Assembly: GCA_001898255.1 (NCBI GenBank)
Contig: MKTK01000010.1
Span: 1-64,000 of the forward strand
DNA: 64,000 bases
Origin: Chryseobacterium sp. 39-10
GTDB lineage: Bacteria; Bacteroidota; Bacteroidia; Flavobacteriales; Weeksellaceae
Direction of reading: 5' to 3'
Below are positions 60,771-63,206 of the stretch, piece by piece. Made by a program: the position numbers and the translations under genes. The notes under the pieces are model-generated. The model ran no database searches. It was not told where the DNA came from and saw nothing but the letters and a program-made list of their open reading frames with translations. Numbering within the stretch: position 1 is the stretch's first letter; every line of letters starts with the position of its first letter.

Positions 60771-62051
60771 TTACAGGTTAAATGCCTTTTTTACTTCATC
60801 CACCTTATCGAGTTTTTCCCAGGTAAAAAATTCGAGGTCTTTTACCGTGAACTTTTCACCATTAGATCCTTTAAACGTTTTATCGGCAACGTAAGGTTCT
60901 CTTCCCATGTGTCCATAAGAAGCAGTTTCCTGATAAATCGGATTTCTAAGTTTCAGGTTTTTTTCAATGGCGTAAGGACGAAGGTCGAAGATTTCCTGCA
61001 CTTTCTTCGCAATTTCACCGTCAGTAAGATCTACTTTTGAAGTTCCGTAGGTATTGATATAAAGTCCGCAAGGTTCTGCAACACCAATGGCATAAGAAAC
61101 CTGCACCAATACTTCGTCGGCAACACCTGCTGCCACAAGATTTTTGGCAATATGGCGCACTGCATAAGCGGCACTTCTGTCAACTTTTGAAGGATCTTTT
61201 CCGGAGAAAGCGCCTCCGCCATGTGCTCCTTTTCCACCGTAAGTGTCCACGATTATTTTTCTTCCAGTTAATCCTGTATCGCCGTGTGGGCCGCCGATTA
61301 CAAATTTTCCAGTCGGGTTAACATGGTATTTAATCTGATCATTAAAAAGCTCCTGTATTTCTCTTTTCTGCTTTGCTTTTACTTTCGGGATCAGTATTTC
61401 GATTACATCTTTTTTAATCTTCGCCAACATTGCTTCTTCACTTCCGAAGTCATCGTGCTGAGTAGAAACTACGATAGAATCTATTCTAATCGGTTTATGA
61501 TTATCAGAATACTCAATTGTTACCTGTGATTTTGCATCAGGTCGCAAATACTTAATAGCGCTGTTCTCGCGACGCAGCTCCGAAAGTTCTTTCAGAATGG
61601 TGTGCGCCAAATCTAGCGCAAGGGGCATATAATTTTCGGTTTCGTTGGTGGCATAACCAAACATCATTCCCTGGTCGCCTGCTCCCTGTTGGTTGGCGCG
61701 GGTTTCAAAATCCACATCATCTCCCACACGGTCAACGCCTTGGTTGATATCGGGCGACTGCTCATGAATGGCAGAAATAACACCACAAGAATCGCCGTTA
61801 AACATATACTCTCCCTTGGTATACCCGATTCCGTTAATAACCTCTCTTGCAATATTTTGAACATCCAGATATGCTTTGGACTTTACTTCGCCCGCCAAAA
61901 CCACTTGCCCCGTCGTCACCAACGTTTCACAAGCCACTTTGGAATTGGGATCATTTGCCAGGAAATTATCGATAAGTGCATCCGAAATCTGGTCGGCTAC
62001 TTTGTCTGGATGTCCTTCTGATACTGATTCAGAAGTAAATAAATAAGACAT
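60771..62051 (-). CDS. metK: S-adenosylmethionine synthase
   Basis: [56 protein letters not shown]. Confidence 0.97.
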
Positions 62052-62125
62052 GTTTCTTTGTTTTAGTTAAACTTTTTGTTGAGCAAAAACGAGAACGATT
62101 ACAAGGAAACTAAAAGAGAGCAATT

Positions 62126-62180
62126 CTGTTTTAGCATTTTTTATGGAGGTTGCAATCAGTTCAAATTTTTCCTCTTGAAT
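62126..62180 (-). ncRNA. SAM-II-like riboswitch aptamer in the metK leader
   Basis: Minus strand TTCAAGAGGAAAAATTTGAACTGATTGCAACCTCCATAAAAAATGCTAAAACAG: GAGG/CCTC P1, TTGCAA, GCTAAA and a CTG/CAG pseudoknot in the SAM-II order. Confidence 0.75.
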
Positions 62181-62191
62181 AATTCGTGGGC

Positions 62192-62221
62192 AAATTTAAA
62201 GACTATTTGCCGAATCTCAAA
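62192..62221 (-). promoter_or_regulatory. metK promoter
   Basis: Minus strand TTG-N19-TAAATTTG; predicted transcript start a few nt before the riboswitch. Confidence 0.65.
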
Positions 62222-62226
62222 ATTTA

Positions 62227-63177
62227 TTATTGGGGTTTAATGGCTACATAATCTTTCGGGCTTTTGCCGAAATTCAGTTTATGATCTACTGCCGCAGAAA
62301 TAAAGCTCTTCAACTCGTCAAGAATTTTTTGCTTATACGTTGGTTTATAATAAATGAGGGAAATTTCACGGTAAGGAAATGGAGCACGGAAACGTTTTAC
62401 TTTTTCTTTTTGTTCCTCTGAAAGCTGTTCCACTGCAAGTTCGGGCAAAATGCTTACGCCGCCTAGTTTATCCACCATCTGGATCAGCGTATTGATATTC
62501 GATGCCACAAACTCCAAGTTTTTTGGTTTCATTGAATTTTCGCGCAGTTCACAAATATTCTCAAACTGGGTTCGCAGGCAATTCCCTTCTTCCAGAAGCC
62601 ACACTTTCTGCACATCAATCTCTTCAGGCACCACAAAGCTATCTTCCTTTTCCGCGCCTGCTTCGCTTGTATAAAGCATCAACTCTTCATTAAAGAGGTG
62701 ATCGTGGTAAAACTCATTGGAGGCCGCATACGGTGTAGAGATAATTCCGGCATCAAGTTCACCTGTTTTTAAAGCTTTAATGATGTTGTCGGTAGTCATT
62801 TCTTTCACCTGGAGCTGAATTTTGGTATGAATTTTCAGAAAATCAAAAATTTCGCTTGGCAAAATAAAACCGGATACGGTAGGGATTATTCCCAGGTTCA
62901 GTTTTCCTGCAAGAACATTATTAAGCAAGCTGGCTTTATTCTTCAACTCATTTATAGAATCTATCACTTTCTTCGCTTCCGCGATAATCTGAATCCCTAC
63001 ATCGGTAGTGCGAATAGGATGTGTAGTTCGGTCAAAAATCTTCACTTCAAGCTCGTCTTCGAACTTTTGGATCATTGCACTTAATGTAGGTTGGGTAATA
63101 AAGCATGCCTGTGCTGCATTACCGAAATGTTTATATTTATCTACTGCGATAAGATATTCCAGTTGTTGAATGTTCAT
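62227..63177 (-). CDS. oxyR: LysR-family regulator, OxyR-like
   Basis: MNIQQLEYLIAVDKYKHFGNAAQACFITQPTLSAMIQKFEDELEVKIFDRTT HTH; divergent from catalase; start trimmed from GTG 63198, which overlaps the promoter. Confidence 0.85.
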   Translation of the reverse strand: MNIQQLEYLIAVDKYKHFGNAAQACFITQPTLSAMIQKFEDELEVKIFDRTTHPIRTTDVGIQIIAEAKKVIDSINELKNKASLLNNVLAGKLNLGIIPTVSGFILPSEIFDFLKIHTKIQLQVKEMTTDNIIKALKTGELDAGIISTPYAASNEFYHDHLFNEELMLYTSEAGAEKEDSFVVPEEIDVQKVWLLEEGNCLRTQFENICELRENSMKPKNLEFVASNINTLIQMVDKLGGVSILPELAVEQLSEEQKEKVKRFRAPFPYREISLIYYKPTYKQKILDELKSFISAAVDHKLNFGKSPKDYVAIKPQ

Positions 63178-63191
63178 TTGATTAATAATGT

Positions 63192-63206
63192 CTATCACAA
63201 AGATAG
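63192..63206. promoter_or_regulatory. OxyR-like half-site pair CTAT-N7-ATAG overlapping the oxyR -7 box
   Basis: CTATCACAAAGATAG; the oxyR -7 TATCTTTG on the minus strand is 63198-63205, with TTG (63225-63227) 19 nt upstream. Confidence 0.45.

Follow-up and report, generated by a model that had tools for sequence, protein, structure and literature searches.

SAM-II is a textbook small riboswitch, and a crystal structure of the metX representative was reportedly described by Gilbert et al. in 2008. In strand-exchange riboswitches, as in many SAM-I riboswitches, one aptamer strand is shared with an alternative helix. Two outputs have been described for SAM-II: an intrinsic terminator, chiefly seen among alpha- and beta-proteobacteria (PMC2258182, PMC1273637), and occlusion of a Shine-Dalgarno sequence that lies within a pseudoknot strand (PMC10907184, PMC9373788). 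These outputs are ill-suited to Bacteroidota, where Shine-Dalgarno sequences are rarely used. A family of “SAM-II long loops” (RF01726) has been reported from Bacteroidetes and marine sequences (Weinberg et al. 2010, PMC2864571), and its model ends at the aptamer, without any downstream tail. In the open-access literature we found no description of the expression platform of a Bacteroidota SAM-II riboswitch, and we claim no priority, given the limits of that scope.

A representative of this family is located upstream of metK, whose product synthesizes the cellular methyl donor SAM, in the window, by which we mean the whole 64 kb stretch of DNA that was analysed. Among 4227 Rfam families searched with cmscan, RF01726 was the only one above threshold in the window, with a full-length match (model positions 1-60) of 62.7 bits, compared to a gathering score of 44 bits (E = 1.1e-9, computed for the whole 64 kb). 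The P1 stem and the conserved blocks ATTGCAACC and TGCTAAA are present, and the same blocks recur in relatives. In the window, the two strands of the P2 pseudoknot are complementary, with CTG and TTGC of the loop facing GCTA and CAG of the 3′ strand. An earlier note, made from the letters of the window, had claimed a SAM-II-like aptamer 5′ of metK on the minus strand. All of the sequence that it quoted is present, the covariance-model search that it proposed gives the above-threshold match to RF01726, and the aptamer, whose TTGCAA and GCTAAA blocks it expected to be conserved, is found in every member of the genus and in most of the family and order. One detail changes: the match is to the Bacteroidota long-loop family. 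SAM_alpha (RF00521), which it had named, gave no match when the genome was searched, but this result is uninformative, as the control genomes gave none either.

It is near certain that the aptamer belongs to the long-loop family, with which it shares a full-length match above the curated threshold, a Bacteroidota host and an association with metK, and from which the aptamer itself does not differ. Since the aptamer is widespread and the family was reported from Bacteroidetes, it is best viewed as an ordinary member, and its ligand is presumably SAM. We also weighed a change of ligand of the spermidine-riboswitch kind and set it aside: the variants on record arose from SAM-I rather than SAM-II (PMC10853860). 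Sub-threshold Rfam matches nearby, among them rliB and SpR14, score far under the respective cut-offs and were dismissed as chance. In one branch of the genus (L103-L108, L110 and L171-L173) the 3′ pseudoknot CAG is replaced by CCG, and in L101 by CAA. The loop CTG is mostly kept in these members, in which the outer pairs of the pseudoknot might be shifted or not needed.

On the minus strand, a LysR-type gene is followed after a few nucleotides by a promoter of the Bacteroidota type, the aptamer, a 74-nt tail and metK (Table 1). Close full-length relatives of the metK product share 66-85% identity and are found across Bacteroidota, the nearest named ones being from Planobacterium and Chryseobacterium, in keeping with the Weeksellaceae named in the earlier note. 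The TTG-N19 promoter that the earlier note placed ahead of the aptamer is present and recurs among relatives: TAnnTTTG occurs 28-42 nt (middle half 32-34) upstream of the aptamer core in all 93 family leaders, and 71 of these additionally carry TTG at a spacing of 18-20 nt. Transcription would thus begin near 62185, about 10 nt ahead of P1. The aptamer CAG ends 74 nt upstream of the metK AUG, in agreement with the distance of ~70 nt that had been estimated for the expression platform. The range originally assigned to the element, 62126-62221, ends ahead of the platform, which runs on to the AUG at 62051. On the plus strand, a terminator-like hairpin with a T-rich tail (TTTCGGGCTTTTGCCGAAA, 62254-62272) lies inside the 3′ end of the opposite-strand LysR-type gene.

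Table 1. Features of the metK leader and its surroundings, in window coordinates.
Feature	Position	Strand	Sequence or remark
LysR-type gene	62227-63198	-	
Promoter, Bacteroidota type	62191-62221	-	TTTG (62221-62218), N19, TAAATTTG (62198-62191)
SAM-II aptamer (RF01726, long loop)	62121-62180	-	P1, pseudoknot, core blocks
P1 strands	62174-62171, 62149-62146	-	GAGG, CCTC
Aptamer loop CTG	62159-62157	-	CTG
Core	62157-62150	-	GATTGCAA; TTGCAA at 62155-62150
GCTAAA	62135-62130	-	within TGCTAAA block ending at 62130
3′ pseudoknot CAG	62128-62126	-	CAG
Anti-aptamer strand H3	62110-62118	-	CTCTTTTAG, complement of CTAAAACAG (62134-62126); TTTTAG at 62115-62110
Anti-aptamer strand H2	62097-62104	-	TTGTAATC, complement of GATTGCAA, one G-U
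Anti-aptamer strand H1	62081-62096	-	GTTCTCGTTTTTGCTC, complement of GAGGAAAAATTTGAAC (P1 5′ strand and loop, 62174-62159)
Strand B	62101-62110	-	GTTTCCTTGT, located between H3 and H2, with overlap on either side; predicted partner of C when SAM holds the aptamer
Strand C	62052-62061	-	ACAAAGAAAC, purine-rich, adjoins AUG; start region predicted occluded in OFF state
metK	60771-62051	-	SAM synthetase, 426 aa, regulated gene; contains SEGHPDK

The tail (62118-62081) is complementary to three parts of the aptamer in nested order, pairing CTCTTTTAG with CTAAAACAG, TTGTAATC with GATTGCAA, and a U/C-rich strand with GAGGAAAAAT. When leaders are read side by side, the tail takes the conserved form CTnTTTTAG-TT(T/C)C...TTG(T/C)AATC-...-TTTTTCTT, and TTTTAG is present 3′ of the aptamer in 62 of 93 leaders, representing 16 of 29 genera. 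In the free fold of the window leader all three helices combine in one long hairpin of -27.7 kcal/mol, wherein the core is predicted to pair with the tail at a probability of 0.97. A mutually exclusive fold between TTTTAG and CTAAAA had been suggested in the earlier note, and this pairing is supported, although it represents only the innermost of the three helices; the two others and a further complement adjacent to the AUG (see below) had been missed.

Because the leader is very A/T-rich, the complementarity could in principle be a by-product of composition, leaving an aptamer that functions alone or acts by direct occlusion. The CTAAAA:TTTTAG helix by itself is indeed significant against shuffles in just 7 of 92 leaders because it is so A/T-rich, and therefore we do not rest the case on it. 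The core:tail pairing ranks among the best 5% of shuffles in 52 of 92 leaders (p = 0.02 for the window), and when aptamer and tail are folded together and compared with tails shuffled so as to keep their dinucleotides, the window gives z = -4.8 and the 29 genera a mean z of -2.66 (p = 1.9e-9). RNAalifold applied to a MAFFT alignment of 35 leaders recovered P1 and a small hairpin only, because the spacing of the tail varies, and covariation was consequently assessed by swapping partners between leaders.

The swaps used 81 leaders, comprising one per genus of the family and 52 more from other parts of the order and phylum. Aptamer arms prefer their own tails by -3.4 kcal/mol (p = 3e-14), and the arm from the window binds its own tail (duplex of -21.9 kcal/mol) better than all 80 others. 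The preference persists at -3.6 kcal/mol (p = 5e-12) after tails more than 70% alike are removed, with 60 of the 67 remaining leaders negative, as expected. It vanishes in two controls: substituting untranscribed upstream DNA for the arm leaves -0.4 kcal/mol (p = 0.09), and substituting metK codons for the tail yields +0.2 kcal/mol (p = 0.92). A compensated change can also be seen directly, where CUGAUUGC:GCAAUCAG in L115 corresponds to CGGGUUGCAA in the core and UUGCAAUCCG in the tail of L162 (genus g34). The dinucleotide shuffles, the partner swaps and the two negative controls all go against the by-product reading. Direct occlusion is also unlikely, as the 3′ strand reads GCTAAAACAGAATTG, with no Shine-Dalgarno sequence in or next to it and with the AUG 74 nt away, and occlusion of this kind was rejected as the output. 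We consider it very improbable that the tail pairs by compositional accident. That the tail is an anti-aptamer, with one long hairpin as the predicted SAM-free fold, is well supported; such tails are widespread in our Bacteroidota sample and apparently undescribed.

A second complementarity connects the tail to the start site. Many members of the genus carry TTTCTTTTGT, a perfect 10-nt complement of ACAAAAGAAA located directly upstream of the AUG. We term the two strands B and C. Over the genus, B fits its own C better (mean -9.3 kcal/mol) than the C of other genera (-4.8 kcal/mol), and the preference for the own partner is significant over 29 genera (Wilcoxon p = 0.0046), nine of which rank in the top tenth. 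Moreover, none of 2000 permutations among 33 haplotypes reaches the observed mean pairing, and in g9, g32 and L109 a U-A pair has become C-G through changes on both sides (TTTC/GAAA to TTCC/GGAA).

The window itself carries a weaker version of this helix. Its B and C form 8 of 10 pairs ungapped, versus 10 of 10 in a typical genus member, and in the predicted fold GUUUC:GAAAC and UUGU:ACAA flank one mismatch; the pairing is modest against shuffles (p = 0.215, z = -1.29). With a blocked-aptamer fold standing in for the SAM-bound state, as the programs handle neither pseudoknots nor SAM, the predicted openness of the start region falls from 0.57 (SAM-free) to 0.37 in the genus mean, and barely changes in the window, from 0.54 to 0.52. 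Across genera, tail and start region folded together gain nothing in energy over their shuffles (p = 0.22), and B:C is therefore claimed only for the genus of the window and some others. Blocking of the start site is the likely output in this genus, as modeled, and would be weaker in the window's own copy.

No B:C helix is visible in many genera, chiefly the short-leader genera g10, g22 and g28. In their leaders (L116, L117, L118, L123, L126, L127, L129, L131, L157 and L169) only 42-56 nt separate GCTAAA from the AUG, and the TTTTAG/TTGYAATC tail is absent. Some carry other complements of the aptamer instead, such as ACAG...CTGT, or TCAGTT matching AACTGA. These genera possibly use a different expression platform.

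We consider it fairly likely that the metK leader is a SAM-II long-loop riboswitch that turns translation off in response to SAM without a Shine-Dalgarno sequence, by way of the anti-aptamer tail and the B:C helix. The aptamer would be transcribed first, in a leader starting about 10 nt upstream of P1. With SAM bound, P1 and the pseudoknot would persist, strand B (GUUUCCUUGU) would pair with the AUG-adjacent strand C (ACAAAGAAAC), and ribosomes would be kept from starting. When SAM is scarce, the tail would invade the aptamer stepwise, with CUCUUUUAG pairing to CUAAAACAG, then UUGUAAUC to GAUUGCAA, and finally the U/C strand to P1. The resulting hairpin would end 29 nt upstream of the AUG, consume strand B and free strand C, permitting metK to be translated. 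The direction of control (SAM turning metK off), translation as the controlled step and the order of events are presumed here.

Minimum free energy folds of the transcript, grown from the putative start near 62185, show P1 alone up to about nucleotide 74, the hairpin with CTAAAACAG (H3) at 74-78, pairing of GATTGCAA (H2) by about 90, and invasion of P1 (H1) by about 105. SAM could accordingly hold the aptamer during a stretch of perhaps 20-30 nt of transcription. If P1 is kept and the pseudoknot strands are reserved, the rest of the leader folds to only -13.6 kcal/mol, versus -27.7 kcal/mol when free. The pseudoknot together with SAM would have to supply this difference, or else the decision may be kinetic.

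What is known of translation in this phylum bears on the model. Bacteroidota generally lack Shine-Dalgarno sequences, and in F. johnsoniae initiation is aided by adenines at -3, -6, -12 and -13 and by low structure (PMC6847099). In a study on Prevotella bryantii, expression fell fivefold with a hairpin at the start region, and strong structure 20 bp upstream is reported not to be inhibitory (PMC3155529). The predicted SAM-free hairpin, which ends 29 nt from the AUG, and the predicted SAM-bound helix, which abuts the AUG, fit the needs of the model.

The same aptamer and anti-aptamer could also serve another output, in which the folded aptamer lowers ribosome access by different means, for example if the freed U-rich tail is bound by a protein or cut by an RNase. 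Such an arrangement would account for the anti-aptamer being near universal and B:C not, and for short-leader genera that retain the aptamer although no B:C helix can be seen in them, but neither protein binding nor RNase cleavage would call for B to co-vary with its own partner, as it does in the genus of the window and several others. We regard this alternative as rather unlikely.

Transcription attenuation, in which an intrinsic or Rho-dependent terminator would form in the leader once SAM is bound, is reported for many proteobacterial SAM-II RNAs. Among alpha- and beta-proteobacteria, no SAM-II platform is more common than the terminator (PMC2258182), and the leader tail does contain U-rich stretches. 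Yet a search of the minus strand between 61900 and 62400 revealed no GC stem with a U-run between aptamer and gene, nor any other terminator-like site between aptamer and AUG, and on this evidence an intrinsic terminator, though not a Rho-dependent one, was rejected as the output. Furthermore, the hairpins that do run into U-rich sequence belong to the SAM-free fold, such that under attenuation SAM would activate the very enzyme that makes it. This mechanism strikes us as quite improbable, and a translational switch remains the preferred reading.

Comparison with described systems reveals both likenesses and differences. The metK leader resembles SAM_alpha (RF00521; Corbino et al. 2005, PMC1273637) in the order of core and pseudoknot, a promoter just before P1, a gene of the methionine/SAM pathway and presumed repression by SAM, but it differs in that 74 nt separate the aptamer from the AUG, a Shine-Dalgarno sequence is lacking, no terminator was found, and the tail is predicted to invade the aptamer. 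The metA SAM-II riboswitch of Sinorhizobium meliloti (PMC9373788) likewise acts on a start codon ~70 nt downstream, but it needs a Shine-Dalgarno sequence in the riboswitch, which the metK leader lacks. As in strand-exchange riboswitches the helices are mutually exclusive; here, however, the alternative helix takes up the two strands of the pseudoknot together with the P1 5′ strand, and the site that would be protected is a purine-rich stretch near the AUG.

Whether this architecture extends to much of Bacteroidota is, in our estimate, evenly balanced; if it does, SAM-II would share there a lineage-wide, co-varying tail that takes apart P1 as well as the two strands of the pseudoknot, along with a translational platform independent of Shine-Dalgarno pairing that covers or frees a purine-rich stretch at the AUG. 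The conserved, co-varying tail offers a concrete and mutable model for riboswitch control of translation in Bacteroidota, and what the ribosomes of this phylum recognize near the AUG becomes testable on a natural switch. The leader also represents a compact gene-control part for Bacteroidota.

The aptamer is present as one copy in each of the 36 genus genomes, and in 139 of 150 family genomes (31 of 34 genera) and 137 of 195 order genomes. Where the start of metK was readable in the retrieved loci, the aptamer nearly always stands ahead of it. The 11 family genomes without a match are nine of genus g17 (L181-L189), L180 (g16) and L190 (g8). Most g17 genomes have a TAAATTTG-type promoter only ~30-45 nt upstream of the metK AUG, and thus have no room for a riboswitch. 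The g17, g16 and g8 cases look like lineage-specific losses and serve as natural controls; SAM-I is kept elsewhere in g17 and g16.

The genome of the window also carries a SAM-I riboswitch (RF00162, 76.9 bits; L204:1501-1607, corresponding to contig C15:35914-36020, plus strand). It precedes a gene that, read by eye, resembles homoserine O-acetyltransferase (metX-like), so that SAM-I and SAM-II serve different genes within one genome. Flavobacterium-type SAM-II matches span 80-110 nt, versus the 60 positions of the model, and often score only 44-50 bits; they contain a large insertion in the aptamer (L008:1335-1441, L029:1319-1426, L015:1351-1430 and many of family f4). Leaders from Sphingobacteriaceae, Mucilaginibacter and Pedobacter (L012, L018, L026 and L031) are divergent and SAM-II-like, and differ in their 5′ arm around GATTGCAACCACG...GCTAA; L018 exceeds the RF01726 cut-off at 48.1 bits, and the other three were recognized by pattern only. 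Finally, the metK leader of an Emticicia MAG (L006:1322-1426) contains a SAM-I/IV riboswitch (RF01725, 47.9 bits) in the position occupied by SAM-II in relatives, an instance of one riboswitch class being replaced by another at the same gene.
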